Both the position numbers and the translations under genes were made by a program. 64,000 nt of DNA from Owenweeksia sp. (GTDB taxonomy: Bacteria > Bacteroidota > Bacteroidia > Flavobacteriales > Schleiferiaceae), in NCBI GenBank assembly GCA_028285465.1, contig JANQPD010000023.1:62001-126000 (forward strand), given 5' to 3'. Shown piece by piece: positions 41,540-61,683 of this stretch (positions are counted from its first letter, which is position 1; each line of letters opens with the position of its first letter). The notes beneath the pieces were generated by a model. It had not been told where the DNA came from. It ran no database searches and saw nothing but the letters and a program-made list of their open reading frames with translations.

Positions 41540-42445
41540 TTAAGGTATCCAGACTTCAGTAGTAGCCTGTGCCCCCACAATGCCGAACCCTCCTTCTATG
41601 TTGGAAAGTACTCTTACCGGTTCGGCGAAAGGATTGTAGCCCACCCGGGAATTTATGGCATTGGTTTGCAAATAATCAAATAGCGGTTTTGAAAGTGAAC
41701 GCAGACGAAAAAGAAAGGGCGTATCCGGACGTATGTTTGAATTCGTGTTTACTTGAAATTTTAAGGTAATGGTATTTCCATCAAAATATTCATCTGTAAA
41801 GTAAGCTGTAGGCCCTGTTTTGGCGTCTGTGGGGATACTGATAAGATCTCGGTTTCCGTATAGCTGAAGTAGGGGCTCATTTGTAATGATCTCTGCCCGC
41901 GTCATTGAGCCAAACAGCTCTTCCTCAAATACTTCTAATGCATAGTAATTAGAGACCCCCCGGGGGTCCTTGAACGACAATTCAACCTGGAGGCCGTAAC
42001 CCTCTCTAAAAAGAGGATTGTAGTCATTCAAGCTAGCTTCAACCGTAACATCCTCAGCAGGGTAGGGCATAGAGGTGGTGCCACTTACGGCCTCAAAGCC
42101 GGGGTAGCGCAAAGTGATTTTGTAATATTGCCCTTCTAACAACGGCTTACCAGAGCAGTACTGGAATTGCAAGGTACTATCCCTTAAAACCGTGGTGTCG
42201 CATAAGCTCATGAGCACGGGGTTTTCCCCGTTTTCTGATAAGGACAACTCGGCATCCGCCAGGTAAGGAATAGGGCCGAGTTGTTCAAAGGGAGCACTTA
42301 TGCTGGCTGTTGCCCTGATCGGCTGGCCTTTTTCGAGGATACAGTTGAGTACAAGTTTTTGCGCTTCTTCCGGGAGGTTTATGTCTATTTCTCTTACACA
42401 GGCGCTCGCCGCGAACAAACAAAGTATAGCTATTTTCTTCTTCAT
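41540..42445 (-). CDS. DUF4249 lipoprotein (receptor partner, island 1)
   Basis: 301 aa. Lipobox AASAC, mature start CVREIDINLPEEAQ. Body is beta-rich, with ALEVFEEELFG and the C-terminal DUF4249 signature PVRVLSNIEGGFGIVGA. Family function unestablished. Encoded 3 bp after the STN-bearing TonB receptor, like its three paralogues in the window, so it is probably an outer-membrane partner of the receptor. Last gene of island 1. Confidence 0.87.
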   Translation of the reverse strand: MKKKIAILCLFAASACVREIDINLPEEAQKLVLNCILEKGQPIRATASISAPFEQLGPIPYLADAELSLSENGENPVLMSLCDTTVLRDSTLQFQYCSGKPLLEGQYYKITLRYPGFEAVSGTTSMPYPAEDVTVEASLNDYNPLFREGYGLQVELSFKDPRGVSNYYALEVFEEELFGSMTRAEIITNEPLLQLYGNRDLISIPTDAKTGPTAYFTDEYFDGNTITLKFQVNTNSNIRPDTPFLFRLRSLSKPLFDYLQTNAINSRVGYNPFAEPVRVLSNIEGGFGIVGAQATTEVWIP

Positions 42446-42448
42446 GTG

Positions 42449-44971
42449 CTAGAACCTAAAAAGATAAGAGACTGAGGGTAAAACCGGGAATACCGAAATC
42501 TTATTCGCTACGCGTCTTCCGTCTTCGGTAGCAAAAAAGATGAAGTAGGGGTTTAAGCGGTTATAAGCATTGTACAGGCTGATATTCCAGGTACGTGATC
42601 CCCAGCGGGTCTTCTTCACCCAGTTAAAGCCGATGTCAGCCCGGTTGTAAGTGGGGTATGTGTAGGCATTTCTACGGCTCCACAATACTTCCTGGTTCCC
42701 GTTTACATCGCGGTAGGAGGCGATGGGAACGGTAGCCCTGATGCCACTGTTTAGTATAAAATTAACCGACATGAAAAAGCGTTTGCTGAAAGTGTGTATA
42801 GCCGATAACTTAAGTTCATGCCTCCGGTCATATTTGTAGGGAAAAGTGAGTCCATCGTTTACTTCCCGGAACCTGCGTTGCGACCAGGCCAGGGTGTATC
42901 CTATCCAACCGGTAGTTTTCCCTGTTTTTTTTCTCAAAAAAAGCTCTAGCCCCCATGCGTTGCCCGTGCCGCCTGTGGCTACCTGATTTTCCCAATTCAA
43001 CGAGGTTCTGAACAAGGTGCCTTCCCTAAAGGTGATCAGGTCTGAGAAGTATTTGTAATAGGCTTCGGCAGTAAACTCCAGCGCACCCTTATAGAGGTCT
43101 TTTGTAGAGCCAAGGTTCCACTGATGTGCTCTTTGAGGGGCAATATTTTCATTGCTGCTTACCCACAGGTCTGTGGGCAGGTTGGAGCCGGAACTGGTGA
43201 GTAAGTGCACGGCCTGCATCATATAGCTATAACTCCCCTGGAACGACCAATCGGGTTTAAAGAGATAACGGGCGATCAGGCGGGGTTGTAAACTGTTGTA
43301 AAATGCTCCGTTTACAAAGTAGGTAGCATAGTGCAGGCCGCTGTTCAAACGCCATTTTTGGTTTAATTTCCACTCATCCTCTATATAGAGGGAAACATCG
43401 TGTGTATTGGTATAGGGGCTTAGCTGTAAAAGAGAATCTAACCGGTTGTTGGCATCTTCTTCTTCGTAAATGAAGGCGCCTGGCCTGAATTGATGAAAGC
43501 TATACAATACTCCTGTTTTGATATGGTGCCGGGAGGAATAGGTATATTCCAGTTCATGCCTGAAGCGATAATCTGTAATGTCACTGAAATACCTGGTTGC
43601 AGTATATTCAAAGGGGTCCTGATCTTCGAGGGCAATGTCCAGCTTGTACCTCGTGTACGCCAGACTGGTATTACTGAAAAGTCGTGTATTAAAAATATAA
43701 TTGTACCGGATTACCCCGGTTACATTTCCATAGCCAAATGCCCCCTTTGCGTTTTCTTCTCCGGAGGTTCGATCATAGTAAATGTTATCCCTGCCTAAGT
43801 ACATGCTGAGGTATATTCTTTCTTTAGCGGAAAATTTGTGGTTTACCTTCAGGGCTACATCATAAAAGTAGGCGCCTCCGCGGCTTTCATCATTTAAAAA
43901 AGGTTGTGCCAGCAGGTCAAAATAAGTTCTTCTCCCACTTATCATAAAGGAGGTTTTGTTTTTGATGAGGGGACCTTCCAGGGTAAGCTTACTCGATAAA
44001 AGTCCAATGCTGCCTGTTCCGTGGAATTGTTCCATATTCCCTTCTTTCATATTTACTTCAACAATGGAACTTAGCCTGCCTCCATAGCGTGCCGGAAAGC
44101 CTCCTTTTGTAAGCGATACGTTTTTGATCGCATCGGTATTGAATACGGAAAAGTAACCGAAGAGGTGGGAGATATTGTATACAGGTACGCCATCCAGAAG
44201 AATTAAATTTTGGTCGGGACTGCCCCCTCTTACTACCAGGCCAATGTTTCCCTCGCTGGTGCCCTGCACCCCCGGAAGCATTTGTACAGATTTTACCAGG
44301 TCTTGTTCCCCAAAAAAAACCGGCATGTTGTTGATCTCGTTCGGGCTTAGCTCAAGGTTTCCCAGGTTGCCGGAGAGGTGCCTGTTCTTGGCACCCGACA
44401 CCACAGCTTCATCCAAAAGGGTATTGGATTCCGTAAGATAAAAGGTCTGAAGCTTATTTATGGAAGGTATAGAAAATACAGTGTCTTCATAGCCCAGATA
44501 ACTTACCTTTATTTCAACCGGATCGGTATTTTGAGCGGGAAGGGGGATACTGAAAAAGCCATAGGTATTACTGGAGGTACCTATGCCGAATTGAGGAAAA
44601 AAAACATTGGCCCCGATCAATCGCTCTTTACTGTTTACATCTTCTACAAATCCGCTTATTACGTTGGTTTTACCCGTTTGCCTGTTGATGATCAAGAGCT
44701 TGTTTGGCCTGAGCCTGACTTCAAAGGCTTTCAGATCAAAAAAAACCGAAAGCAATTCCTCAACAGCTGCCTGTTTCTCTTTTGGCAGTACAGGTTTCTC
44801 AATCAAACTGGTTTGCCGATAGCTGAGGCTGTACCCAAGTTCCTTCAGGTCTTGCTTAAAGTCATTTAGGGCATAGGCCGGATGGATGGAAAGCTTTTCT
44901 TCCAGGACATTTTTTTGCCCTGCGAGATAAACGAAAGAGAATACCAGCAGAAATGAAAAAAAAGCTTTCAT
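42449..44971 (-). CDS. TonB-dependent receptor with STN signalling domain (island 1)
   Basis: 840 aa. Signal peptide (1-18), STN/FecA-like domain at about 25-98, CarboxypepD-regulatory-like domain at about 103-185 (ISGFVEDVNSKERLIGANVF), plug from about 200 (QMLPGVQGTSEGNIGLVVRG, LILLDGVPVYNISHLFGYF), 22-strand-type barrel ending in SYLFRF. The STN domain contacts FecR, and the sigma and FecR genes are the first of the same run, so this receptor should control its own expression. Ligand unknown. Confidence 0.93.
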   Translation of the reverse strand: MKAFFSFLLVFSFVYLAGQKNVLEEKLSIHPAYALNDFKQDLKELGYSLSYRQTSLIEKPVLPKEKQAAVEELLSVFFDLKAFEVRLRPNKLLIINRQTGKTNVISGFVEDVNSKERLIGANVFFPQFGIGTSSNTYGFFSIPLPAQNTDPVEIKVSYLGYEDTVFSIPSINKLQTFYLTESNTLLDEAVVSGAKNRHLSGNLGNLELSPNEINNMPVFFGEQDLVKSVQMLPGVQGTSEGNIGLVVRGGSPDQNLILLDGVPVYNISHLFGYFSVFNTDAIKNVSLTKGGFPARYGGRLSSIVEVNMKEGNMEQFHGTGSIGLLSSKLTLEGPLIKNKTSFMISGRRTYFDLLAQPFLNDESRGGAYFYDVALKVNHKFSAKERIYLSMYLGRDNIYYDRTSGEENAKGAFGYGNVTGVIRYNYIFNTRLFSNTSLAYTRYKLDIALEDQDPFEYTATRYFSDITDYRFRHELEYTYSSRHHIKTGVLYSFHQFRPGAFIYEEEDANNRLDSLLQLSPYTNTHDVSLYIEDEWKLNQKWRLNSGLHYATYFVNGAFYNSLQPRLIARYLFKPDWSFQGSYSYMMQAVHLLTSSGSNLPTDLWVSSNENIAPQRAHQWNLGSTKDLYKGALEFTAEAYYKYFSDLITFREGTLFRTSLNWENQVATGGTGNAWGLELFLRKKTGKTTGWIGYTLAWSQRRFREVNDGLTFPYKYDRRHELKLSAIHTFSKRFFMSVNFILNSGIRATVPIASYRDVNGNQEVLWSRRNAYTYPTYNRADIGFNWVKKTRWGSRTWNISLYNAYNRLNPYFIFFATEDGRRVANKISVFPVLPSVSYLFRF

Positions 44972-44972
44972 C

Positions 44973-45428
44973 CTAGCGATACAAATAGTAGGTTGTGGTA
45001 CGCAACGTACCGTCTTCCAGCGTGTCTTCTTTCCAAATAACCCAGTCTCTTACAGGAGGCTCAAGGTCCTCCGGTAAAAAAGTATAGAGTGTATCCTCCA
45101 AACTCAGCAGTGTATCCAGGGTAAAATAATAAGGCGAGGTTTTTTCATAAAAATTAAAAGTTCTCTGTAGCGTACTGTCTCCTGAAAAACTCCATATCAT
45201 AGGGGCGGTATCGGTTTTCCGGATGGTATCTCTATTGTTGTCTACAAGAGTTACGACCATTTCTTGTTGCACCCATAAACGTCCTACCACCTTATCAACA
45301 TAATGTTCATGCACCCGGTTTATTTCGGCAGATCCGGGTTTTTCTCTGAAGGCGCGTTCTTTTTTACAGGAAAGAAGAAACAGGAACAGCAAACATGCAA
45401 TGAGGTATGAAGTTATTTTTCTAAACAT
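44973..45428 (-). CDS. Small lipoprotein, paralogue of the upstream one
   Basis: 151 aa. Lipobox LLSC, mature start CKKERAFREKP. Shares the block AEINRVHEHYVDKVVG with its neighbour (AEINKVHERYSELVSS), then W, FSF-like strands, a D-rich middle and C-terminal VIWKEDTLEDGTLRTTTYYL versus IWKHDTIQEGIVVTDVY. Tandem duplicates that have diverged. A lipocalin-like barrel is possible from the pattern. 1 bp before the TonB receptor, 168 bp after the paralogue. Confidence 0.72.
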   Translation of the reverse strand: MFRKITSYLIACLLFLFLLSCKKERAFREKPGSAEINRVHEHYVDKVVGRLWVQQEMVVTLVDNNRDTIRKTDTAPMIWSFSGDSTLQRTFNFYEKTSPYYFTLDTLLSLEDTLYTFLPEDLEPPVRDWVIWKEDTLEDGTLRTTTYYLYR

Positions 45429-45596
45429 GAGATATGGGGATAAATGCAGTTTTTAAAGGATATTCAATACTGTTTGCGAAACAAAAATCTTTGAGCGTTC
45501 TCTTCCTGTACCTTCTAAAAATTTTTGGCTAAAAGATCTGCTCTTTTTTCCAAGAGGTATAAATAAAACAGCCTCTGAGGAATACACCAATGAACT

Positions 45597-46064
45597 TTAT
45601 CTTGATTGGAGACGATAAACATCAGTTACAACTATACCTTCCTGGATCGTATCGTGTTTCCAAATACTTAAGTTTGTTAAGGGTTGCTTAAGCTTTTTAG
45701 GAGAAAAATAATGAGGGCTTCCGTTTAAGTCTAATAAAGAATCTTCGGTAAAGTGGTACGAAAATATGACTTCATCATTCGTGCGGAAAAGGTATTTTTT
45801 CAAGATATTGTCTTGACCTTCAGCGTTAAAATTCCAATATATACCAGGATCGTCATTTTTTCCCAAGGTATCTATTACTCCGTTCCGGTAAGTAAGGGTA
45901 GTGAAATTCTTGACTTGCTTCCACTGCACAGAACTCACTAGTTCCGAATACCGTTCATGCACCTTGTTTATTTCAGCAGGTTGGGGGTTTTCTTCTTTTT
46001 TACAGGAAAAAAGAGACAAGCATAGTACATATACAATAAGGGGTGGCGTTACTTTTTTGAACAT
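45597..46064 (-). CDS. Small lipoprotein with AEIN-VHE motif (island 1)
   Basis: 155 aa. Lipobox FSC, mature start CKKEENPQPAEINKVHERY. Conserved W (WKQV), the FNAEGQDNILKKYLF strand and a SIWKHDTIQEG tail. Unknown family, paralogous to the next gene. Its start overlaps fecR by 16 bp, so it belongs to the sigma/FecR transcript. Confidence 0.72.
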   Translation of the reverse strand: MFKKVTPPLIVYVLCLSLFSCKKEENPQPAEINKVHERYSELVSSVQWKQVKNFTTLTYRNGVIDTLGKNDDPGIYWNFNAEGQDNILKKYLFRTNDEVIFSYHFTEDSLLDLNGSPHYFSPKKLKQPLTNLSIWKHDTIQEGIVVTDVYRLQSR

Positions 46065-46972
46065 GAGGTATGGATTATAGATAGGGTATTGTTCTTAAAT
46101 GTGTATGCAAAGCCGTTCACCAGGCTTAGTTCCTCCAGTACTGTTTCAAGGGGAGCCTGGTCAAAGCTGCCGGTAAAAGAACAATTGACCAACTCCGCAT
46201 TTTCTTGCAGGTTAAAAAGATAATGTCCTTGCAGGCTTTGTAGAACATCATTTACCGGGGTATTTTCAAACACAAATATTCCACTTTGCCAGGCATTGTA
46301 ATTGGGGTTCTTAATTTTACTTTTGATAAGTTGGGTTCCATTCAGCCAGCCCTTTTCTCCCTTGATTAAAGTAACTTTATCCTTCTTTGCGGAGAAAATC
46401 ACTTTGCCCTCACTTACTTCGAGGAGTTTTTTCTCCGTATTCAGCAAGAAAGCGGTGCCCACCACTTGTGTCGCGACATCACCGCTTTCTATAAGAAAAG
46501 GCTTGGAAAGGTTTTTTGTAACTGTGAAGTAAGCTTTGCCCTGAAAAGATATTTCTCGTTGGAACCAGTTAAAATATAGAGGTACACGTAAGGTGCCAGG
46601 GCCTATAATACTCACGGTGGAGCCATCGTTTAATGCAATGCGTTCAGCTTGCCCCTTCTTCAGCCTATACGTAGAATGAGCAGTAGACAAAACGCCCAGG
46701 CCAAGGAGCAGCAACATACTGGCAGCTATGGCTACCCAACGGAACCGGGTCTTTGTAGATCGTGTAGGACGAGAAAAGTGTGTTTTTTGAAATTTTAGCC
46801 AGGCCAGATCAGTTTCCGGGTCGGCTTTTGGTTTTTCACCCGCTTCTTCCCAGATGCGCTGCAAAGCTTTAAACTCTTTCTCTTTTCCTTCCTGCAACAG
46901 CCACTGATTAAAGCGAACACGCTCTTGTTCAGTAGCGGAACCGTCTAATATTTTAATACTTAATGGATGCAC
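46049..46972 (-). CDS. FecR-family anti-sigma factor (island 1)
   Basis: 307 aa from a GTG start (no alternative before an upstream stop). Cytosolic N-terminal helices, one membrane helix (WVAIAASMLLLLGLGVL near residue 82), FecR domain (LKKGQAERIALNDGSTVSI near 107), and a C-terminal DUF4974-like module (VFENTPVNDVLQSLQGHY near 232). It relays the STN signal from the receptor to the sigma factor. Overlaps the small lipoprotein gene by 16 bp. Confidence 0.92.
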   Translation of the reverse strand: MHPLSIKILDGSATEQERVRFNQWLLQEGKEKEFKALQRIWEEAGEKPKADPETDLAWLKFQKTHFSRPTRSTKTRFRWVAIAASMLLLLGLGVLSTAHSTYRLKKGQAERIALNDGSTVSIIGPGTLRVPLYFNWFQREISFQGKAYFTVTKNLSKPFLIESGDVATQVVGTAFLLNTEKKLLEVSEGKVIFSAKKDKVTLIKGEKGWLNGTQLIKSKIKNPNYNAWQSGIFVFENTPVNDVLQSLQGHYLFNLQENAELVNCSFTGSFDQAPLETVLEELSLVNGFAYTFKNNTLSIIHTSCSKK

Positions 46973-47028
46973 ATACTCGCTTTAGTATAAGTATGACACA
47001 TAAGTAAAGGGGCACACGTAAAAGAAAT

Positions 47029-47583
47029 TCAAAAATGTAAAAGAAAATGTAAAATAGCCAGCTTAAGCCCCTTGCGCATGTGCTTCAGGGCAATGGAAAT
47101 CTGTGTTTCTACCGTGCGTTTTGATAAACCGAGACGGCCAGCTATTTCTTCATTGCTCAATTTTTGGAAGCGACTGAGCTCAAAGATCTCACGGCATCTT
47201 GCAGGAAGTTTTTCGATCAACTTATCTATTTGTGCTTGCAGGTCTGCAAGCTCTAGGTCTTTGTTAGGTGGGAACGTTTCATTTTGCCGGTAGGCAATTT
47301 CCAAATGGTGGGCACGATGCAGTTTTATTTGCCTGATTTCATTAAGGGCTTTGTTGTTTACGGCAGTAAATAAATACGATTTTAATGAACCCTTTATGTT
47401 GAGGTCATTTCTCTTCTCGTACAAACTGCCAAATACTTCCTGCACAAGATCTTTGGCGGCTTCCTGGTCACCCAGCAGTTTTGTGGCGAAGGCAGTGAGC
47501 GGTTTAAAATAGGTGTAGAATAATAGATAATATGCTTCTTCAGAACCCTTAGAGAGTCCTTCTTTCCACTTTAGTTGATCCAT
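47029..47583 (-). CDS. ECF RNA polymerase sigma factor, FecI type (island 1)
   Basis: 184 aa. Sigma region 2 (AYYLLFYTYFKPLTAFATKL, GDQEAAKDLVQEVFGSLYEK) and region 4 with helix-turn-helix (LSNEEIAGRLGLSKRTVET). Belongs to the Bacteroidota sigma-70 family group adjacent to FecR. Encoded 56 bp upstream of fecR, giving a sigma-FecR-lipoprotein(x2)-receptor-DUF4249 order. ATG at 47583. Confidence 0.93.
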   Translation of the reverse strand: MDQLKWKEGLSKGSEEAYYLLFYTYFKPLTAFATKLLGDQEAAKDLVQEVFGSLYEKRNDLNIKGSLKSYLFTAVNNKALNEIRQIKLHRAHHLEIAYRQNETFPPNKDLELADLQAQIDKLIEKLPARCREIFELSRFQKLSNEEIAGRLGLSKRTVETQISIALKHMRKGLKLAILHFLLHF

Positions 47584-47666
47584 GAACTTGTTTCCGGGAA
47601 AAGTAGGAAAATCCCAATAATGTTTTTGAGTTGAAGCAAATTTGGTTTTTTACGGCAAACTGCTTT

Positions 47667-49157: not shown

Positions 49158-49551
49158 TGAAGTACAGTTAAGGATTGATAAAGCCAGTGCAGCGTCTTTT
49201 TTTTTGCTGAGACAGGTAATCTTGAAGGATAGTCTACTTAAAGAGCACCTTCATCCAGTGTTGTATGCGGTTTTTTAGTACCATGGGGAAACAAGATAAT
49301 AGGCCTCACGTATAAGTTCTTCATCGCTTGCATTTTATTCTTTGTTATTAATTCTCTTCATAAATAAAAGACGAGCGGTGAAGGGCCAGATGCTGCATGG
49401 CCGACAAAAAACACCGGGGGTGAAAACAAGCAGCCGGTGCTTTCACGCAGAATAATTGCTGTTTATCAGTGGATTAGCGGTTGTGAGAACTCTTTCCAGC
49501 GCTTGCTGAGAAACCATGCGCTTGCTAGTTTATAAAAAACAGGGGCTCGAC
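49158..49551. other. 394-bp intergenic region with hairpins
   Basis: No credible gene. It holds the - strand terminator at 49406-49439 and a neighbouring GGCCA/TGGCC hairpin at 49384-49402. The remainder is AT-rich leader for the GT39 gene with no exact TAnnTTTG box on the - strand. Confidence 0.7.
49406..49439 (-). terminator. Intrinsic terminator for the 52.8-49.5 kb receptor operon
   Basis: On the - strand CACCGG ... CCGGTG (6-bp stem, 16-nt loop) followed by six T (49411-49406). It lies 113 bp downstream of the DUF4249 stop at 49552. The loop is long, so strength is uncertain. Confidence 0.55.
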
Positions 49552-50457
49552 TTAAGGAAAAAGCTGAACGGTCCGTTCATTCCCGGAGGCTACGATGCCA
49601 TAACCGTTTTCCACATTAGAATGTACTTGTACGGGCTCGCTAAAGAAATCATCATAGGTTTCAAAACCTGAAAGGCTTTTTTCAAAGAGATAATAGTCTT
49701 CGGTAATGTTGATCACCTCTAAAACCAGCGCGGTCGTTTCGCGGTCCTCTATAGGAGGTATTTCTATTTCCAGGATCTTTTGTCCGTTTTTAAAGCGGGT
49801 ATCGGTTAAATAGCCCACAAACGTTTTGAGCCGGGTAGGCAGCTGCCCTTCATTTATTTCCAACTCAAAAACCTCTAACGTAGGATCTTTGGTAGTAAAG
49901 GGCACAATTAAGCTGTTTTCTATATTGATGCTGCGTGTACGGAGCATGTACCAGTTATCTTCATTGGGAATATCCGTGATCTGTACCCGGTAAACGCTAT
50001 TGCTGTGGTCAAAAAAGATCCGTTGTGCTTCAGGTGGTTGAGGCATGGTGGTTTCGCCGGATATAGGGGGGTAGCCGTCTTTACTCACTTCTAATCGGTA
50101 GGTACGGTTTGCATTTGCGCTAGCTGTTAGGGTTGTAGCGTATTTATATATGGGTGTAATTCTGCCGTTTAGGGGATTCTCGTAAGTGGCTACAAAATAA
50201 GGCTGCAGTTCAGCCCGCAATACATCGTCTTCATAAAGCTGTACGACACAATCATCTGGTATACCGGGGCGCTGACTGCCTATAGCACGTGAGGTGGTGC
50301 TTATCAATACGGAGATGCTATCGCGAGCAAAAATACGGGTGTCCATGCTGAGGGTAGGCCCGGGATAGGACAGGTCGTAGTCCAGCACCTTTTCACATGC
50401 TGAGCTTAAAGACAAGAGAATAAGAAGCAATAGTACAGAAGATAAAGGCCTTTTCAT
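49552..50457 (-). CDS. DUF4249 lipoprotein (receptor partner 2)
   Basis: 301 aa. Lipobox SSAC with mature start CEKVLDYDLSYPG. Contains ISVLISTTSRAIGSQRPG near 50, NWYMLRTRSINIENS, and C-terminal signature FFSEPVQVHSNVENGYGIVASG. 2 bp after the 775-aa receptor. Same role inferred as for the other DUF4249 genes. Confidence 0.87.
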   Translation of the reverse strand: MKRPLSSVLLLLILLSLSSACEKVLDYDLSYPGPTLSMDTRIFARDSISVLISTTSRAIGSQRPGIPDDCVVQLYEDDVLRAELQPYFVATYENPLNGRITPIYKYATTLTASANANRTYRLEVSKDGYPPISGETTMPQPPEAQRIFFDHSNSVYRVQITDIPNEDNWYMLRTRSINIENSLIVPFTTKDPTLEVFELEINEGQLPTRLKTFVGYLTDTRFKNGQKILEIEIPPIEDRETTALVLEVINITEDYYLFEKSLSGFETYDDFFSEPVQVHSNVENGYGIVASGNERTVQLFP

Positions 50458-50459
50458 GC

Positions 50460-52787: not shown

Positions 52788-52966
52788 GAATCAAATGGGC
52801 AGCTGGGGTTAGCTTATAAATTTCCAGGGGAAACGGCCACGCAAAAGTTTCGTGATAAAAGGTAACAAAAGTGAAATGGTGAAGTGGGTTTAATGCTAAG
52901 CTAAGTTTAACAAATGGTCAATATTTTTAATGCATTTTCAAAAAAGCTTTATCAGGATGTTTTTGC

Positions 52967-52997
52967 AAAAAAAAAGCCCACGGTCAAACCGTGGGCT
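52967..52997 (-). terminator. Strong intrinsic terminator of the 61.7-53.0 kb operon
   Basis: On the - strand AGCCCACGGT, loop TTG, ACCGTGGGCT then nine T (52975-52967). A perfect 10-bp GC-rich stem, 18 bp downstream of the DUF4249 stop at 53015. It separates the operon of island 2 from the next receptor pair. Confidence 0.9.
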
Positions 52998-53014
52998 ATG
53001 CTGGCAAAAAGCGT

Positions 53015-53905
53015 TTACCTGGGCAGTTCAACCTGGGAAGCCGCTCCACTGGCTACCACCCCGTATCCATTGGAAATGTTGCTGTAGATCTGGGCTGGCT
53101 CGCTGAAAAAGTCGTCTGAATTAAGGTAAGCAGAATAGGTAAGCCTGAAGCGATAATAATCTTCCGTAATGCGTATTACCTGGAAGTATAGCTCGTCCTG
53201 TTCCTCACCGGGAAGGGATATCCCAAAGTCAAGCTGTTTGGTGCCATCCCTGAAGTACTCATCGGATAAAAAGGCCTCATCTGTATAAACATCCTGATCG
53301 GGATCGAACGGGTCGTTATAATAATCGAATGTTTCTACGGTAGGATCGGAGAGGATCATAGTGGCCAGTTCAAAAGTACCTCCCGCTCTCTTATAGTAGG
53401 CCCTTAGCAGATACCAGTCGTCACCTCCTTGGGCATCTTCTATCCTGACCCGGTACCTCTCCCGGTTAGCGTCATATGTTACGTAGCTTACGTTGACGGG
53501 CTCTACCACAGAGGTTTCCCCTTTAATGGTTTGAAAGCCGCTTTTGGAAGCTTCCAGGCGGTAGTTTTTGCCTGATTGCACAATTGCCTGGCTATGATAC
53601 AGGTAGATATCCTGGGTTGTTCCGCGCCCGTTCGGATCGTAATAAGTTTGGTAGAATTGAGGTTCCAATGTATCGGTAAGTATATTGTTTTCAAACAGGT
53701 ATACTGTATAGTCGTCAGATGCTTTAGGAGAAGCGGCATCCAGGGAGTACACAGACTCTCCCACTAAAGCGGTTATGGTATTTCCGCTCAGGAGTAAAGC
53801 CTCCATGGTAAGCTTATTGCCGGGATCGGGAATTTTATAGTCGGTAAGGATCTTTTCGCAGCTTAAAAGCGCAAGGAGCGGAAGAAGATACATTGCTTTT
53901 TTCAT
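53015..53905 (-). CDS. DUF4249 lipoprotein (receptor partner 3)
   Basis: 296 aa. Lipobox LLSC with mature start CEKILTDYKIPDPG. Middle section is Asp/Tyr-rich (ETFDYYNDPFDPDQDVYTDE). C-terminal signature FFSEPAQIYSNISNGYGVVASG matches the partner at 49552 closely. 4 bp after the 777-aa receptor and directly before a strong terminator. Confidence 0.88.
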   Translation of the reverse strand: MKKAMYLLPLLALLSCEKILTDYKIPDPGNKLTMEALLLSGNTITALVGESVYSLDAASPKASDDYTVYLFENNILTDTLEPQFYQTYYDPNGRGTTQDIYLYHSQAIVQSGKNYRLEASKSGFQTIKGETSVVEPVNVSYVTYDANRERYRVRIEDAQGGDDWYLLRAYYKRAGGTFELATMILSDPTVETFDYYNDPFDPDQDVYTDEAFLSDEYFRDGTKQLDFGISLPGEEQDELYFQVIRITEDYYRFRLTYSAYLNSDDFFSEPAQIYSNISNGYGVVASGAASQVELPR

Positions 53906-53909
53906 AAGG

Positions 53910-56243
53910 CTAAAAGTTAAAACTATAAGAGATTGAAGGAATAATAGGGAAGAGGCTCACCTGGTACACGTTTCTTGCCCCGGTATCGTAATCGGTCCTC
54001 AAGTAAAGAAAATAGGGGTTTTGCCGGCTGTAGGCATTGTAGGCGCTTATGTTCCAGACACTTTCTCCCCAACGTGTTTTTTTGCGGAAATTGAATCCTA
54101 TATCCAGGCGGTGGTAAGCCGGCATGCGCAAGCCGTTGCGTTCGCTGTAGCGGTCTACCGCATCCACATTCCCACTGAAAGAGCCGCCCAGGAAATATTT
54201 GGCTACCGGGGCGGTAAAGGTGTTTCCGGTACCGTATACCCAGGTTAGGCCCATGTCGAAGCGATCTGAAAATTTGTGGTTTACCACCACGCTTATATCG
54301 TGTCTGCGGTCATATTTGTAGGGATAGGTATTTCCCTGGTTGATGTTGTCGAACTGGCGATTGGTCCAGGCGAGTGTATAGCCTATCCAACCGGTGGTTT
54401 TCCCTTTGTTTTTCCTGATCAGGAACTCAACTCCGTACGCCTGACCCCTGCCATCGGTCTCCACGGTATTTTGCCAGTCTGTGGTAGAAAGAAAAGAAGC
54501 ACCCTCTTTATAATCGATTAGGTTATCCATCCATTTATAATATGCCTCTACAGAAAACTCGAACATATTGCCCCGTACATTTCGTGTGCTCCCTATGGCA
54601 ATTTGCTGGGATATCTGAGGCCTTACTTTCTCAGTAGAAGAAACCCATAGATCGGTAGGTAGCCCGATGCCGTTATTGCTAAGCAGGTGAATGTACTGGT
54701 TCATGTACGCATAAGAGGCCTTTACCGACCAGTCATCACGCAACAGGTACCGTCCCGAAAAACGGGGCTGCAGGGAGTGGTAGAAGGCTTCGCTGGTGAA
54801 ATACAGGTTGTAATTGAGCCCGTAATTGATGCGGAGCTTATCGTTCACTATGAAGTCATCTTCCACATACAGCACTCCTTCGTTGGCATAAATGGGCTGT
54901 GAGAGGTTTAGGATGCTGTCTATTTTCCTGCCGTCAAATTCATCGGCTATCTGCGCTACCCCGGGTTTGAAGATGTGGTAGGTATAAGCGGCCCCCATTT
55001 TAAGCGTATGCTTATTGTTGAGCACATAATCCATGTCGTAGCGCAGGCCGTAATCCCGGATCAGGGAGGAGTATTCAAAGCCGAAATTCCTGGTTTCCCC
55101 ACCCGGTTCGGATAAGGTTTCCTCGGCACCAAGGCTAAGCCTGTATTGCGTATAGCTGGCGGTGAGGTTGCCAAAGAGCTTATCGGAAAACAGGTGGTTC
55201 CAACGAGTGGAACCCGTATAGTTGCCCCACTTCAGGAAGGTTTCAAATGCATCTTCCTGGCTGCCACCCGAAAAACCGCTTTCTTTATAGCGGGTAAAAA
55301 ATTTATCCAGGCCGGTGTAAAAGCTTACATATACCCGGTCTTTGCGTGAAAAATGGTGATTCAGCTTTACGTTTACATCCGTAAAGTAATATCCTCCGTC
55401 CGTATTGTCAGGCAGAAACGGCCTTACCAACAAATCGTAATACGTTCTGCGCCCGGAGAGCATAAAAGAGGTTTTATCCTTTACCAGCGGGCCTTCCAGG
55501 GTAAGCTTTGAGGCGATAAGGCCTATAGAGCCTTCTCCGTGAAATTCCCGCATGTTTCCTTCCTTAAGGTCTATTTCGAGCACGGAGCTTAAGCGCCCGG
55601 AAAAACGAGCGGGAAAGCCTCCTTTGGTGAGCTGTACATTTTTAATGGCATCTGCATTGAATACGGAAAAGAAACCGAACAGGTGAGAGGCATTGTATAC
55701 AGGTACGCCATCGAGCAGGATCAGGTTTTGATCGGGAGATCCGCCCCTAACGTAAAAACCGGTAGTACCTTCTCCACCGCTTTGCACCCCCGGAAGCAGT
55801 TGTATGGCACGAATCACGTCTACCTCGCCTAAAAAGGCAGGGATCTGTTTTATTTCTTTGGAACTAAGTGTGAAAGTGCTCATTTGCGTTTTTTGCGCCT
55901 GTATCTCTTCCGCCACCACCAAAGCCTCTTCCAATTGGATACTGGCAGGGGAAAGTGCTACGTCAAGGATATAATCCCGGTTGGCACTTATGCGAAAGCG
56001 TTTGCTTTCATACCCTAAATAGCTTACTGTTACGTTTAGGCTATCGGTTTCCGGTTCTATGCTGAGCGAATAAAAGCCATAGGTATTTGAAGCGGTGCCC
56101 GAAGTAGTACCGGGTATAAATACATTTACACCAATCAGGCGTTCCTTACTGGCCGCGTCTTCAATAAAGCCACTTATGGTAATGGTTTTAGCGGCTAGGG
56201 AGGAGCTACAGACCATGCAGAACCAACAAATTGCTTTCTTCAT
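53910..56243 (-). CDS. TonB-dependent receptor lacking STN domain (island 2)
   Basis: 777 aa. Signal peptide ends near SSLAAK, then ITISGFIEDAASKERLIGVN of the CarboxypepD-like domain, no STN. Plug GEVDVIRAIQLLPGVQSG, then LLDGVPVYNASHLFGFFSVF; barrel ends SYSFNF. Near-identical plug to the 50460 receptor, with a more divergent barrel. It lies downstream in the operon of the STN receptor at 57133 and so probably shares its sigma-driven transcription. Confidence 0.93.
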   Translation of the reverse strand: MKKAICWFCMVCSSSLAAKTITISGFIEDAASKERLIGVNVFIPGTTSGTASNTYGFYSLSIEPETDSLNVTVSYLGYESKRFRISANRDYILDVALSPASIQLEEALVVAEEIQAQKTQMSTFTLSSKEIKQIPAFLGEVDVIRAIQLLPGVQSGGEGTTGFYVRGGSPDQNLILLDGVPVYNASHLFGFFSVFNADAIKNVQLTKGGFPARFSGRLSSVLEIDLKEGNMREFHGEGSIGLIASKLTLEGPLVKDKTSFMLSGRRTYYDLLVRPFLPDNTDGGYYFTDVNVKLNHHFSRKDRVYVSFYTGLDKFFTRYKESGFSGGSQEDAFETFLKWGNYTGSTRWNHLFSDKLFGNLTASYTQYRLSLGAEETLSEPGGETRNFGFEYSSLIRDYGLRYDMDYVLNNKHTLKMGAAYTYHIFKPGVAQIADEFDGRKIDSILNLSQPIYANEGVLYVEDDFIVNDKLRINYGLNYNLYFTSEAFYHSLQPRFSGRYLLRDDWSVKASYAYMNQYIHLLSNNGIGLPTDLWVSSTEKVRPQISQQIAIGSTRNVRGNMFEFSVEAYYKWMDNLIDYKEGASFLSTTDWQNTVETDGRGQAYGVEFLIRKNKGKTTGWIGYTLAWTNRQFDNINQGNTYPYKYDRRHDISVVVNHKFSDRFDMGLTWVYGTGNTFTAPVAKYFLGGSFSGNVDAVDRYSERNGLRMPAYHRLDIGFNFRKKTRWGESVWNISAYNAYSRQNPYFLYLRTDYDTGARNVYQVSLFPIIPSISYSFNF

Positions 56244-56276
56244 ATTGAGTGTGGGTTTAAGGGATGGTATACGATT

Positions 56277-57149
56277 TTATCGGTTAACGCGTATTTCGGT
56301 TTTGTGGGCACAGGCGACAATGCCGTAGCCATTTTTGACGTTGCTATGCAGGTTTCCCTGGTCTGAAAACAGGGGAACGTCTGCTTCCTGGGTGCCTTTA
56401 CTCACTTCATGCCGGTAATAATCTGAACTCACCTGTAAGATCCTGAAAACGATTTCTCCCGACAGGTCAAATTGTGCCGAATAACGGAAGTTGAACGCTC
56501 TTTGCCCGCTGTTTTCATTTTTTAGGTAGTATCGAATCCCTTCCGGAAGGGAAGCCCCCGTATAAATGTATCCGGAAGATTCCTGGACCAACATTTCCGG
56601 GTCTGATGTGGAAAGGTTTAAGAAAAGACGCTCGTTTTCCCTATCAAGGTAACAGTCAAACAAGTAATAAGCAGGTACGGATTGGTTTATTAAGCTAAAG
56701 CTGATTTGCTTTTCAACGGTATCGATTACCAGATGAAGCGGTTCCGGCTTTCCCGGAACCCGGTCGCTTCCCTCTACATCCGGGAAACCCTCGACAGAGG
56801 CCTTAATCGTATAAAGCGCCCTATCGTTAAGGGGCTTTCCTGAGGTGTATAAAAAATAGGTTGAATCAAATAACCCTCCCGACTCAACTGCTTTAGGTTG
56901 AAGCGTATCTATGAGCAATTGGTTTTCAAATAGGTAAATGCGCGCACTATCACTCAATACGGGGGTGGCGTTCGACCAAAAGGGTGCGGAAATACCCGCC
57001 AGTACTTTTATGCTGTCTCCGACAATTAATTTGGCGTCCAGGACTATTTTAGGTTTTTCCTCAGGTAATGGAAAATCCAGGGTTTTGGTGCAGGCACCAA
57101 GCACCAGGAAGGCACAGAAAATGCTTACTCGGTTAAAACTCAAAGCCAT
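56277..57149 (-). CDS. DUF4249 lipoprotein (receptor partner 4)
   Basis: 290 aa. Lipobox LGAC with mature start CTKTLDFPLPEEKP. Contains IKVLAGISAPFWSNATPV near 48 and the C-terminal LHSNVKNGYGIVACAHKTEIRV. Its start overlaps the STN receptor by 17 bp, and the next receptor begins 33 bp later, so it sits between two receptor genes. Confidence 0.86.
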   Translation of the reverse strand: MALSFNRVSIFCAFLVLGACTKTLDFPLPEEKPKIVLDAKLIVGDSIKVLAGISAPFWSNATPVLSDSARIYLFENQLLIDTLQPKAVESGGLFDSTYFLYTSGKPLNDRALYTIKASVEGFPDVEGSDRVPGKPEPLHLVIDTVEKQISFSLINQSVPAYYLFDCYLDRENERLFLNLSTSDPEMLVQESSGYIYTGASLPEGIRYYLKNENSGQRAFNFRYSAQFDLSGEIVFRILQVSSDYYRHEVSKGTQEADVPLFSDQGNLHSNVKNGYGIVACAHKTEIRVNR

Positions 57150-59640
57150 ACGTTATTGAAGGTATGATGGGAAAGAGACTCAGTTGTTCCACCCTGTTTT
57201 GGTTGTTTGCAGTAACCACTTCCAGGTAGAAGGGATTTTGCCTGTTGTAGGCATTGTATAGGCCTACACTCCAGGTGCGCTGCCCCCACCGGGTACGTTT
57301 TTTAAAATGCGCGCTCAGGTCGAGCCTGTGATAGGCCGGGTACCGTAGGCTATTGCGCGAAGCGTAGTCCGTATGTAAAGTTACTCCACCGGTATTGGGA
57401 TCGATCAGGTAATAGGTGCTGGTGGGCAAGCTAAAGGCCTGTCCGGTAGCGTATACCCAGTTTACGCCCAGCTCAAATTTTTCGGAAAAGCGATGGTTAA
57501 ATACGATGCTTATGTTATGCCTCCTGTCGTATTTAAAAGGGTAAAAAGCACCCCTGTTGATGTTTTCAAACTGCCTTTCAGACTTTGAAAGGGTATAGGA
57601 GATCCAACCGGTGGTTTTCCCTTCCAGGCGCTTCAAAAAGAGCTCCATGCCATACGCCCGTCCTAAACCATGGGTTTCTATAGCGTTTTCCCAATCACCT
57701 GAGGTAAGGTAGCTGGCCCCGTTTTTATAAGCAATAAGATTGCTGAGCCATTTGTAATACACCTCGCCTGAGACTTCCCACTTTCCTCCGCCAAAATGAT
57801 GGAAACTGCCAAAAGCGAGTTGTTCAGAACGTTGGGGAGCCACGTTGGCAGTAGAGGACACCCATAGGTCGGTAGGTAAACCAACCCCCTGGTTGGTGAG
57901 GAGGTGTATGGGCTGGGCCATGTTGGCATAAGAAGCTTTGAGCGACCAGTTTTGCTTTACGCTATAGCGGGCGGCAAGGCGGGGCTGGAGGTAATGGTAT
58001 AGCTTGCCTCCCGGGTAATAGACAGAGTAGTGCAGTCCTGCGTTTACTTTCCATCTGGCGTTGATGGCCCAGTCATCTTCTGCGTAGATGTAGAGATCGT
58101 GGGCATTGATATTACTGGAAGAAGCCTGCTGGTTAAGCTCTTCCGTCTGAAAGATTCCGGGACTTGTTTGATGGTAGGTATAGTTAAGTCCAAATCTGCT
58201 TTTGTGCTGCACAAACTGTTGCCACTCAAAATCATATTTTAAACCGTAGTCTTCTATGGCGCTTTTATAACTGAAATCCGGCGCACCGTTTCCGGAAATG
58301 CCGCTTCCGGTAAGAAACCTGTACCGGCTATAGGTGGCGGTAAGGTTTCCAAAAAGGGTTTCGTTTAAAATACGGTTCCAGCGCAGGGCTACCGTGCGGT
58401 TTCCCCACTTTACATCAAAGGGATCGGCAACTCCGAATGCCGAGGCATCGTTTACTCCCAGTGCATCCCGGCCGGAATAAAAGCTCAGGTAAAGCCGGTC
58501 TTTCTCATTTATGAGGTAGTTCAGCTTTGCGTTTACATCATTGAAGAAGTAGTTAAACGGTATATTGGGGTTTACAGCTCTGGCGATCAGGTCCCAGTAG
58601 GTTCTGCGTCCCGAAAGCATAAAGCTCATTTTGTTTTTTATGATCGGTCCTTCCAGCATAAGCCTGCTGGCAACCAGGCCAATGGAGCCAGACCCGTGGT
58701 ACTCGTTCAGGTTGCCCTCTTTCATGTCAATGCTCAGCACCGAGCTGAGCCTTCCGCCAAAACGGGCCGGGAACCCTCCTTTTATGAGGGAAATGCTTTT
58801 GATTGCCTCCGCATTGAATACGGAAAAGAAACCAAATAAGTGGGAGGCGTTGTACACGGGTACGCCATCTAAAAGCAAGAGGTTTTGATCCGGGCTGCCC
58901 CCCCGTACAATAAGACCTGCTGTTCCTTCCGTTCCAACCTGTACCCCGGGCAAGGTTTGTACCGTTTTCAGGATATCTACTTCCCCGAGGAAGGCGGGCG
59001 TACCTTTGGCAAATTCAGGGCTAAACGAGGCTTCGCTCATCTGCGTAAAATCGGTGGTAAGCACACGGGCATTGATTTCCACCGTAGGCAGTTGCAGAGG
59101 ACTTGCCTGTAGCGAGAAGTCTACGGGGTTCTCTGTACTATACACCCACCTTTTTTCGTTTTTGTACCCCAGGGAAGAGGCAATAACCAACAAAGTATCC
59201 TTTACGTCAACGGTAAGCGAAAAATATCCAAAGGCATTAGTGGTAGTGCCAATGTTTAAAGATGGGATATACACATGGGCACCCACCAGGCGTTCCCCGC
59301 TTTCCTTTTCTTCCACATAACCGTTTAGATTGCGTGTCTGCTCCTTAAGGATAGGGCTTATGATCACCTTATTTTTGCGGTAAATGAAGCGGTAGGCCTG
59401 TTCATCAAATAGCATGGACAACAATTTATGGAGTACCGGATTGGCGTTGTCAAGCACTATCTCCTGTTGGTACACAGCCGAATTTGCATAACTCAATTGA
59501 ACGCCACCGGCCCTTATGCTATCTATTACCTCCGTTGCGCTATAACGCCCGGGACTTATACGTATTACGTATTGCCTGTTCACCTGTGCCTGACAAAATA
59601 CACAGGTGAGTATTCCGAATACCGCAAACAGGTGACGCAT
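57133..59640 (-). CDS. TonB-dependent receptor with STN signalling domain (island 2)
   Basis: 835 aa. Signal peptide (1-18), STN-like domain at ~22-100 (RYSATEVIDSIRAGGVQLSY, LHKLLSMLFDEQAYRFIYR), CarboxypepD-like at ~105-190 (LNGYVEEKESGERLVGAHVY), plug LKTVQTLPGVQVGTEGTAGL, barrel ending TYGFEF. Located 2 bp after fecR, so it is the signal-transducing receptor of island 2. Confidence 0.93.
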   Translation of the reverse strand: MRHLFAVFGILTCVFCQAQVNRQYVIRISPGRYSATEVIDSIRAGGVQLSYANSAVYQQEIVLDNANPVLHKLLSMLFDEQAYRFIYRKNKVIISPILKEQTRNLNGYVEEKESGERLVGAHVYIPSLNIGTTTNAFGYFSLTVDVKDTLLVIASSLGYKNEKRWVYSTENPVDFSLQASPLQLPTVEINARVLTTDFTQMSEASFSPEFAKGTPAFLGEVDILKTVQTLPGVQVGTEGTAGLIVRGGSPDQNLLLLDGVPVYNASHLFGFFSVFNAEAIKSISLIKGGFPARFGGRLSSVLSIDMKEGNLNEYHGSGSIGLVASRLMLEGPIIKNKMSFMLSGRRTYWDLIARAVNPNIPFNYFFNDVNAKLNYLINEKDRLYLSFYSGRDALGVNDASAFGVADPFDVKWGNRTVALRWNRILNETLFGNLTATYSRYRFLTGSGISGNGAPDFSYKSAIEDYGLKYDFEWQQFVQHKSRFGLNYTYHQTSPGIFQTEELNQQASSSNINAHDLYIYAEDDWAINARWKVNAGLHYSVYYPGGKLYHYLQPRLAARYSVKQNWSLKASYANMAQPIHLLTNQGVGLPTDLWVSSTANVAPQRSEQLAFGSFHHFGGGKWEVSGEVYYKWLSNLIAYKNGASYLTSGDWENAIETHGLGRAYGMELFLKRLEGKTTGWISYTLSKSERQFENINRGAFYPFKYDRRHNISIVFNHRFSEKFELGVNWVYATGQAFSLPTSTYYLIDPNTGGVTLHTDYASRNSLRYPAYHRLDLSAHFKKRTRWGQRTWSVGLYNAYNRQNPFYLEVVTANNQNRVEQLSLFPIIPSITYGFEF

Positions 59641-59642
59641 GT

Positions 59643-60623
59643 TTACTTACAATTGAGCTTTTGCAGGTGCAGTGTATTTGCCTGCCAATAATACTTCATG
59701 CCCATAGCCAGGGCAAGTTCCTCAATAGCCTCTTTTTGGGTTTGCTGGTAAAAGCTTCCGCTAAAGCGACAGTATACCTCTGCCTCCAGTTCATGTACAT
59801 CCAGGTTGAACCCATAATAATCCTGTAATGCGGCTAATACATTGAATAATGACTCGTTCTCAAATGTATAAGATCCGGTTAACCAGGCATCAGGGTTTTT
59901 AGTTTCCGTAAAGGCCTTGCGCAATGTGTTGTGCTCAAACGTAGCCGCTTGTCCGGGGCTTAGCAATAGCGTATCCTGCCCGTTGTTTGCCCAGTAAGCC
60001 ACTTTTCCTTCGCTAAGCACAATGCTGTTTTCCGTTTCGCTGGCCCGTAACCTGAAAGCCGTTCCAAGTACCCTTGTGGTGGTTTTGGGACCAAATACTT
60101 CAAAAGGTTTTTCCGGGTTCTTCGCTACTTGAAAAAGGGCTTCTCCTTCCAGGGAAAGCGTTCGGCCGAACCAATTAAAAGTGCGGGGAACGCTAAGCCG
60201 GGTATTTTCCGATAGCATCAATTCGGAACCATCTCCCAGGTGTACAAGCAAACGTTCATGGGCTGCCGTTTTATATTGGGTACTGCCGCTAAACCATAAG
60301 GAGGAAATGCCTACGCTCAATAAGAGGAGTACAGCTGCAGCATAGCGCCAAATTACTTTCCCGGAGCGGGGTGCTTCACGGTGTTTTTGCATGTTGATAT
60401 CTGAGAAATGACGCTGTTGAAAGCGTTCCCATTGTGCCTCTACATCTATTTTATAGCGTAGAGGATTTTCGCTGTTTTGCCAAATACGTTGCACTCTGTC
60501 AAAGGCATGCTTATGAGCGGGATCCTCAGCAAGCCAATCCTGCAAAGCCGCTTCATCGGCACCTGAGCTTTGTTTGCTCAGGTGCCTGATGATCAGCGTT
60601 AGTATGTGGTCCGGAAGGTGCAT
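59643..60623 (-). CDS. FecR-family anti-sigma factor (island 2)
   Basis: 326 aa. N-terminal helices with AALQDWLAEDPAHKHAFDRV, one membrane helix (WRYAAAVLLLLSVGISSLWF near 93), FecR core (LVHLGDGSELMLSENTRLSV near 125), C-terminal DUF4974-like module (TFENESLFNVLAALQDYYGF near 252). Starts 1 bp after the small lipoprotein gene. Confidence 0.92.
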   Translation of the reverse strand: MHLPDHILTLIIRHLSKQSSGADEAALQDWLAEDPAHKHAFDRVQRIWQNSENPLRYKIDVEAQWERFQQRHFSDINMQKHREAPRSGKVIWRYAAAVLLLLSVGISSLWFSGSTQYKTAAHERLLVHLGDGSELMLSENTRLSVPRTFNWFGRTLSLEGEALFQVAKNPEKPFEVFGPKTTTRVLGTAFRLRASETENSIVLSEGKVAYWANNGQDTLLLSPGQAATFEHNTLRKAFTETKNPDAWLTGSYTFENESLFNVLAALQDYYGFNLDVHELEAEVYCRFSGSFYQQTQKEAIEELALAMGMKYYWQANTLHLQKLNCK

Positions 60624-60624
60624 T

Positions 60625-61050
60625 TTATCTGTTCATGAAAATGCGAGTGGTTACATAGATGCCGTTAACACCACCCATTTCCTCGTATTCAAGGCTTTCT
60701 ATGTCAAAGTTGCTTTCGTCAAGTCTTAGAATGGTAAAGCAAAGCTCATCTATAACTATTTGATTGCCATTAAGCATATAGGAAGAAGTATCGGACTCAT
60801 CTCCGGGAAAGTCTGTTACTACCGTATTGTCGTTGTAAAAAGTAGCCACACCGACCATCTGTTCCGTACTGTCTGCCACAACCGTATCATTCACCTCTAC
60901 TGTATAGCGTGTAGACTCAAAATTCCAGCTGCTTTGTTTAAGCAGTTGAGCATAGGTTTTGGAGGGAACCGGGTCTTGATCGTTTTCCTTGTTGCATGAA
61001 GATAAGATTACCATCAGGGCCAGGGCGATTGAAGAACTAAGTTTTTTCAT
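60625..61050 (-). CDS. Small lipoprotein between sigma and FecR (island 2)
   Basis: 141 aa. Lipobox LSSC with mature start CNKENDQDPVPSKTYAQLLK. Has W (SSWNFESTRY), VGVATFYNDNTVVTDFPG and CFTILRLDESNFDIESLEY, a pattern reminiscent of small lipocalin-like lipoproteins. Different in sequence from the island 1 pair but similar in size and place. Unknown function; the position inside a sigma/anti-sigma pair is unusual. Confidence 0.72.
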   Translation of the reverse strand: MKKLSSSIALALMVILSSCNKENDQDPVPSKTYAQLLKQSSWNFESTRYTVEVNDTVVADSTEQMVGVATFYNDNTVVTDFPGDESDTSSYMLNGNQIVIDELCFTILRLDESNFDIESLEYEEMGGVNGIYVTTRIFMNR

Positions 61051-61125
61051 TTTTACGTTTTTGTTTTGGGTTTATACTTTCAATACATCCCTATGACAAC
61101 TATACCCCCTGGGCACACGTACGCA

Positions 61126-61683
61126 TCAATGAAAATTTTCTAAAAAAAATTCTATAATCATGATTTTCAAAGCATTGCGAAGTATCCTTAACGCTTTAGA
61201 TATGTGTGTTTCTACGGTGCGTTTGCTGATGCCCAGGCGATCGGCTATCTCCTGGTTGCTTAAATGCTCTACACGGCTCATCTTAAAAACGCGGCTACAT
61301 TCCGGAGGCAGTTCATCTACAAGACGGTGTATACGTGCTTCCAGCTCAGCATATTCCACCCAATCACTTTCATCGGCTTCAGGCTTGTCTTGCTTTATAG
61401 CGGTGTGATGACGGCTCTTAACGGCTTCATGCTTGAGTATATTCAGGCTGCGGTTTCCAACACTTTTGTATAAAAAGGATTTCAGGCTCTCGCTGATAAG
61501 CAGATTTTCCCGGTTCTCGTAAAGGTAAGTGAATACTTCCTGTACCACATCCTGGGCGCTGTCTATATCTCCCAGGTACTTATTGGCATAGAAACTCAAA
61601 GGTTCAAAGTAGGTAAAGAAGAGGGCTTTGAAGGCTTCTTCATCTCCCTCTTTTATGCCCTGTAAAAGTGTTTGTTCTTGCAA
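61126..61683 (-). CDS. ECF RNA polymerase sigma factor, FecI type (island 2)
   Basis: 185 aa from a TTG start (61683). Region 2 AFKALFFTYFEPLSFYANKY and DIDSAQDVVQEVFTYLYE; region 4 HLSNQEIADRLGISKRTVET. Paralogous to the factor at 47029. Upstream lies a TATCTTTG element. It heads a run of sigma, lipoprotein, FecR, STN receptor, DUF4249, receptor, DUF4249. Confidence 0.93.
   Translation of the reverse strand: MQEQTLLQGIKEGDEEAFKALFFTYFEPLSFYANKYLGDIDSAQDVVQEVFTYLYENRENLLISESLKSFLYKSVGNRSLNILKHEAVKSRHHTAIKQDKPEADESDWVEYAELEARIHRLVDELPPECSRVFKMSRVEHLSNQEIADRLGISKRTVETHISKALRILRNALKIMIIEFFLENFH

Follow-up and report, generated by a model that had tools for sequence, protein, structure and literature searches.

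Cell-surface signalling is described as passing through three components in turn, a receptor, FecR and a sigma factor. A TonB receptor encoded next to a DUF4249 protein is known from Bacteroides thetaiotaomicron (BT2172/BT2173), where disruption of either gene has similar consequences, and operons of this type are conserved across dozens of genera (PMC11003636). Multiple binding lipoproteins, BtuG and others, likewise occur in known TonB systems (PMC10404256). During the analysis of a 64,000-nucleotide stretch of an Owenweeksia sp. genome (family Schleiferiaceae; contig JANQPD010000023.1, positions 62,001 to 126,000), hereafter the window, we examined two gene islands that combine these features. 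All of their genes lie on the minus strand and comprise two modules of an extracytoplasmic function (ECF) sigma factor with the anti-sigma regulator FecR, four pairs of TonB receptor and DUF4249 lipoprotein, and three small lipoproteins, A to C. The two sigma/FecR pairs, the four receptor/DUF4249 pairs and the small lipoproteins lie where a preliminary description drawn from the sequence alone had placed them, and Pfam searches confirmed the domains. Small lipoproteins of this kind accompany the DUF4249-linked sigma/FecR modules of the family, and a non-homologous lipoprotein fills the same operon slot in Bacteroides-type genomes.

Small lipoprotein genes in sigma/FecR loci

Island 1 runs in the order sigma factor, FecR, lipoprotein A, lipoprotein B, receptor 1 and DUF4249, and island 2 in the order sigma factor, lipoprotein C and FecR, followed by three receptor/DUF4249 pairs. 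Five further genomes of the family share the order sigma, lipoprotein, FecR, STN receptor and DUF4249, so that the arrangement is more than chance. All seven scorable DUF4249 sigma/FecR loci of the family contain one or more small lipoproteins (the two in the window, L089, L090, L091, L092 and L105; L071 is cut by a contig end and was left out of the count). The gene is located between sigma and FecR in six of the seven and after FecR in island 1, while in L105 two such genes separate sigma from FecR and a third, encoding an unrelated lipoprotein, follows FecR. No such lipoprotein was present in the other sigma/FecR loci of the family (0/14) or in loci with adjacent sigma and FecR genes from across the phylum (0/38, six with DUF4249 and 32 without). 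The spacing of the genes agrees with these counts: the sigma-FecR gap measures -88 to 341 bp in adjacent loci that lack DUF4249, as against 502-1243 bp where a lipoprotein intervenes, and two larger values come from an unrelated second FecR (L226) and from L194, in which a receptor/DUF4249 pair intervenes. Overall, 7 of 18 DUF4249 sigma/FecR loci have a lipoprotein compared with 0 of 46 others (Fisher p = 5e-5, uncorrected for kinship). Receptor/DUF4249 pairs that stand alone (about 80) almost never have one beside them, and none belongs to receptor 3 or receptor 4 of the window; the small lipoprotein thus belongs to the signalling arm and not to uptake in general.

Other arrangements were observed in the same survey. 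The receptor/DUF4249 pair that separates sigma from FecR in L194 (9351-16897) is complete and has no STN, and an STN-type receptor follows; the pair represents another insertion in the same slot. L228 and L234 (G464 and G381) encode sigma, FecR, a receptor, a second FecR and DUF4249, that is, two different FecR genes for each sigma factor. Chryseosolibacter histidini has a stand-alone DUF4249 gene with a lipocalin-like lipoprotein (L145, 13578-14021) some 370 bp downstream.

The slot is also occupied in Bacteroides-type genomes. L199, on a Bacteroides nordii contig, encodes a 141-residue lipoprotein between sigma and FecR, and a search of 41 genomes (B. nordii and relatives) with this protein gave a match in 11, of which ten new ones were mapped. 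Ten loci, L199 included, have the order sigma, lipoprotein of about 140 residues, FecR, STN receptor and DUF4249; L262 and L264 were resolved separately, in L260 the FecR was not recognised and is represented by a 169-residue frame only, and the match in L263 lies outside such a locus. Because the lipoprotein itself was the query, which biases the frequency upwards, these loci document conservation of the slot and not how often it is filled. The Bacteroides-type lipoproteins give weak immunoglobulin (Ig)-like matches, the best to BT_3987-like_N (E = 1.3e-4), and their export-signal motifs are less regular. With unrelated families at the same position, the sequences indicate that two lineages filled one operon slot independently.

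We considered whether the lipocalin-like and Bacteroides-type lipoproteins are homologous and rejected this, as the alignment covers the signal peptide only, and a suspected receptor-DUF4249 gene fusion in L262 proved to be a case of overlapping reading frames. We found no publication on small lipoproteins encoded between the sigma and FecR genes, and the literature covered, which was mostly without subscription journals, appears to contain no earlier description of one operon slot recurrently filled by non-homologous lipoproteins.

Nature of the small lipoproteins

Lipoprotein C scores 16.9 bits against the Pfam family Lipocalin_4 (PF13648), under the curated cut-off of 22.4, and its relative in L096 scores above it (24.5 bits). 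Lipoproteins A and B are paralogous to each other (about 40% identity) and have no relative outside the host genome among 60 relatives or 392 genomes across the phylum, although A gives a weak profile match to the family of lipoprotein C (E = 5.9e-5, partly in the signal peptide). By curated cut-offs the small lipoproteins are thus of no recognised family, as first described, with the qualification that C comes near Lipocalin_4 and that A and B form a pair. The third lipoprotein of L105 (6633-7166, G067, 177 residues) sits between FecR and the receptor, the position held by A and B in the window; it was tried as a homologue of these and rejected, only the signal peptide being shared. Sequence searches found no solved structural relative of lipoprotein C or of DUF4249.

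The mature N-termini read CNKEND (C), CKKEEN (A) and CKKERA (B), and those of relatives in the slot CNKDDD, CDKDDD and CSKDDD. The optimum for surface export, C-X-K-(D/E)2, was determined experimentally in Capnocytophaga canimorsus, and export signals vary among species (PMC5080379). Against this Capnocytophaga consensus, of which other species use variants, lipoprotein A (CKKEE) conforms, C (CNKEN) and B (CKKER) come close, and most of the relatives in the slot conform; the exact motif is found in 10 of 81 lipoproteins of the family loci. The N-termini of lipoproteins A, B and C are thus judged to be close to the surface-export type.

Receptors, DUF4249 and the signalling extension

A signalling-type N-terminal extension of about 80-100 residues is present in 12 of the 13 DUF4249-linked receptors that have FecR upstream, and clearly absent from 79 of the 82 that do not. 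The remaining three of the latter set comprise L199 with a frame-broken FecR, L207 at a contig end and L104, which was not scorable. The automatic linker measure gave 10/13; L203 and L235, in which it misplaced the signal peptide and the total N-terminal length agrees with an extension, were added by hand. Since the extension goes with an upstream FecR, receptors 1 and 2 are, by their sequences, the only ones in the window built to signal, and receptors 3 and 4 would be signal-blind.

The gene of receptor 1 is in frame with that of its DUF4249 partner, and the read-through chain was folded with AlphaFold2 from an alignment that included 23 further in-frame pairs (mean predicted local distance difference test score, pLDDT, 80). 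As barrel and plug by themselves account for about 56% of this chain, the predicted template modelling score (pTM) of 0.77, a whole-chain value without an inter-domain error map, suggests some confidence in the placement of DUF4249. The receptor fold resembles small-ligand TonB transporters (Fiu, Z 35.3; FyuA, 35.2; Bacteroides BtuB-BtuG, 8p97, 33.8; BtuB, 33.6), and comparison of the receptor model with the BtuB-type barrel 8blw gave Z 30.8. Modelled alone, DUF4249 (pLDDT 91) consists, apart from the signal peptide and a single helix of 16 residues, almost entirely of strands and forms tandem Ig-like domains; its best structural match has Z 8.1 at a root mean square deviation of 5.6 with 179 aligned. 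The matches listed are generic Ig-like only and include no known TonB partner lipoprotein, to which DUF4249 may nonetheless be related. At their N-termini the DUF4249 proteins (CEKEID, CEKTID) are similar to the family's SusD-like proteins (CEKDFLD, CEKELLQ). The divergence of receptors is matched by that of their cognate DUF4249 partners (r 0.66, against a mean of 0.51 in within-locus shuffles, 1 of 300 of which was as high), a correlation that linkage of adjacent genes alone could explain. DUF4249 is predicted to be a lipoprotein on the cell surface, with two Ig-like domains, that forms a cap over its cognate receptor.

Variation in the receptor/DUF4249 pairs includes two or three tandem DUF4249 genes after the receptor (L204, L060 and L180). 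A second conserved pair is located beside a channel-like membrane protein of about 430 residues (MscS type by eye) in 15 genomes (L050, L053, L057, L062, L064 and about ten more).

Origin of the regulated copies

Relatives in the family mostly possess a plain receptor/DUF4249 pair without sigma or FecR. In many of them it occupies one chromosomal place, which we take, from reading the flanking sequences, to lie between arginyl-tRNA synthetase/arginase-like genes on one side and ftsK on the other. In the tree, receptors 3 and 4 group with these syntenic copies in a slowly evolving clade and the STN-type receptors 1 and 2 form long branches; the regulated copies thus seem to be tandem duplicates that have diverged. 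A single FecR clade (support 99/92-93) takes in all FecR proteins of the DUF4249 loci in the family, including FecR 1 and FecR 2, which identifies the two islands, on phylogenetic grounds, as paralogues of one module and not two systems. The 3.8 Mb host genome contains six DUF4249 and four FecR genes, of which four and two, respectively, are in the islands.

Proposed function and alternatives

From the gene order, domain make-up and co-inheritance set out above we infer a relay that leads from the loaded receptor to induction of the operon. The system would be a self-inducing TonB importer for a small ligand, with DUF4249 as a cap and the small lipoprotein as a component of the signalling arm, most likely at the surface; taken as a whole, we give this reading an even chance of being correct. 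The ligand would be trapped beneath the DUF4249 cap and imported in a TonB-energised step, and receptor 1 or 2, once loaded, would contact FecR through its STN-like extension. FecR would then release the ECF sigma factor and the operon would be induced, including the signal-blind receptor/DUF4249 copies 3 and 4. The small lipoprotein, most likely located on the cell surface, would bind either the ligand that acts as inducer or the receptor with its cap, making signalling ligand-dependent or specific.

A surface co-receptor or specificity factor is the likeliest role for the lipoprotein, and a periplasmic co-regulator its main rival. In the latter case the protein would modulate the contact between FecR and the STN-like domain as an anti-sigma co-regulator instead of binding ligand outside the cell. 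Its gene lies between sigma and FecR, 1 bp from FecR in the window, it is missing from receptor pairs that do not signal, and the Bacteroides-type proteins have the less regular export motifs, all of which suit a periplasmic location; the N-termini in the window and in the slot nevertheless lie near the surface-export optimum (defined in Capnocytophaga, with variants in other species), and we regard this rival as unlikely.

Lipocalin-like folds often bind small ligands. Together with the surface-type N-termini and the precedent of TonB systems with several binding lipoproteins (PMC10404256), this would favour a second surface capture protein that serves uptake by passing ligand to the DUF4249-capped receptor. 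The preliminary description had proposed such general ligand capture, but the near absence of the lipoprotein from about 80 stand-alone pairs, and from receptors 3 and 4, speaks against it and renders this role improbable. The same description's view of an uptake system that FecI/FecR-type signalling controls, and in which the receptor has DUF4249 for a dedicated partner, is supported by the BT2172/BT2173 precedent and by the fused model. That the lipoprotein is a passenger, or a guard against phages or toxins as Llp is for FhuA, with no part in signalling or uptake, would agree with its optional occurrence, with the orphan status of A and B and with the presence of a small receptor-blocking lipoprotein among the structural matches (FhuA-Llp, 8a60), but is very doubtful given that its position is conserved in five other family genomes and ten Bacteroides-type loci, that it is absent from all 46 sigma/FecR loci without DUF4249, and that stand-alone receptors, too, would be expected to have such a guard.

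Several observations weigh against the self-inducing importer with a surface co-receptor. Outside the two lineages, the slot is without a lipoprotein in ten DUF4249 sigma/FecR loci; the lipoprotein is therefore optional, and signalling can work without it. The lipocalin-like relatives lie mostly outside such loci (10 of 15 matches of at least 50 bits); lipoproteins occurring mostly without receptors had been named in advance as evidence against the proposal, and this applies to these relatives but not to the family, where every scorable DUF4249 sigma/FecR locus has one. The sole true exception to the distribution of the extension is L071 (G036), in which FecR lies directly upstream of a DUF4249-linked receptor that lacks it, the contig ending before sigma. 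The Pfam STN model does not match receptors 1 and 2, so that the identity of the extension as STN rests on position and length, and this region is poor in the AlphaFold2 model (pLDDT 33-67). Conserved neighbours of 147 receptor/DUF4249 pairs gave no clue to the ligand, as only chromosomal housekeeping genes recur (FtsK/LolA/LptG-like, a channel-like protein, RuvC-like). The whole-chain nature of the pTM, the linkage of the co-diverging genes and the biased Bacteroides-type sample, noted above, count on the same side.

It is possible, and we suggest it tentatively, that two distant Bacteroidota lineages independently recruited unrelated surface lipoproteins as a dedicated signalling co-receptor, a fourth protein needed for ligand sensing. 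If so, a lipoprotein cistron in the same slot, with receptors of the DUF4249 kind only, would mean that these systems need an extra surface sensor, and would hint at an overlooked part of the sensing machinery. The occurrence of the arrangement in relatives of the gut species Bacteroides nordii should make it testable in culturable, genetically tractable gut bacteria, and offers a way into DUF4249, a family that is widespread but has no established role.

Gene content of the islands

The features are listed in Table 1; all four DUF4249 genes exceed the curated Pfam cut-off for PF14054 (28.5 bits). Gaps are operon-like, with 1 bp between lipoprotein C and FecR, 2 bp between FecR 2 and receptor 2 and 1 bp between lipoprotein B and receptor 1, and the gene of lipoprotein A overlaps the end of that of FecR 1. 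The islands are separated by an unrelated gene for a 496-residue multi-spanning membrane protein (47667-49157, minus strand), which has no Pfam or NCBIfam match and no relative in the family loci fetched, and looks by eye like a GT-C type glycosyltransferase.

Table 1. Features of the two islands (window positions)
Feature	Position	Strand	Evidence
ECF sigma factor, island 1	47029..47583	-	Pfam Sigma70_r4_2 59 bits, Sigma70_r2 45.8 bits
FecR anti-sigma regulator, island 1 (FecR 1)	46049..46972	-	Pfam FecR 38.4 bits, FecR_C 45.1 bits
Small lipoprotein A	45597..46064	-	Lipobox then CKKEEN
Small lipoprotein B, paralogue of A	44973..45428	-	41% identity to A; N-terminus CKKERA
Receptor 1, TonB receptor with STN-like N-terminal extension	42449..44971	-	Pfam domains; 86-residue extension; AlphaFold2 model
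DUF4249 lipoprotein, receptor 1 partner	41540..42445	-	PF14054 121.5 bits; AlphaFold2 pLDDT 91, tandem Ig-like
ECF sigma factor, island 2	61126..61683	-	Pfam Sigma70_r4_2 60.4 bits, Sigma70_r2 28.1 bits
Small lipoprotein C, remotely lipocalin-like	60625..61050	-	Lipobox then CNKEND; orthologues in same slot in L089-L092, L105
FecR anti-sigma regulator, island 2 (FecR 2)	59643..60623	-	Pfam FecR 59.5, FecR_C 24.6, DUF4880 32.5 bits
Receptor 2, TonB receptor with STN-like extension	57133..59640	-	Barrel, plug, CarbopepD_reg_2 domains; 85-residue extension
DUF4249 lipoprotein, receptor 2 partner	56277..57149	-	PF14054 72 bits
Receptor 3, TonB receptor without signalling extension	53910..56243	-	Slowly evolving syntenic clade with relatives
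DUF4249 lipoprotein, receptor 3 partner	53015..53905	-	PF14054 90.8 bits
Receptor 4, TonB receptor without signalling extension	50460..52787	-	Tandem copy of receptor 3, 71% identity
DUF4249 lipoprotein, receptor 4 partner	49552..50457	-	PF14054 96.6 bits

Comparison with known systems

FecIR signalling and lipoprotein-assisted TonB transport are already known kinds, and the locus as a whole is therefore not the undescribed system for which it had been put forward as a candidate. It shares with FecI-FecR-FecA the ECF sigma factor, whose gene adjoins a FecR-domain gene in the window, a FecR with FecR and FecR_C domains, and a receptor extension that occurs only with an upstream FecR; the small lipoprotein cistron, the DUF4249 partner and the signal-blind receptor pairs are additions. 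Lipoprotein C and its relatives show a remote similarity to Lipocalin_4, but C itself scores under the cut-off, and a sigma/FecR operon is the fixed location of its gene. As in BtuB-BtuG and SusC-SusD, a TonB receptor is encoded with a dedicated adjacent surface-type lipoprotein, and the receptor fold matches barrels of the BtuB type. SusD is mostly helical, however, whereas the DUF4249 protein of the window is predicted to consist of tandem Ig-like domains, and receptors 4 and 3 score only 83.3 and 67.5 bits against the SusC model (NCBIfam TIGR04056, cut-off 368 bits). BtuG is a beta-propeller; the best matches listed for the DUF4249 model are Ig-like, absence from that list not amounting to exclusion. 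A published precedent is BT2172/BT2173, which is the same receptor-DUF4249 gene pair; sigma/FecR and a small lipoprotein, both present in the window, are not mentioned for it (PMC11003636).

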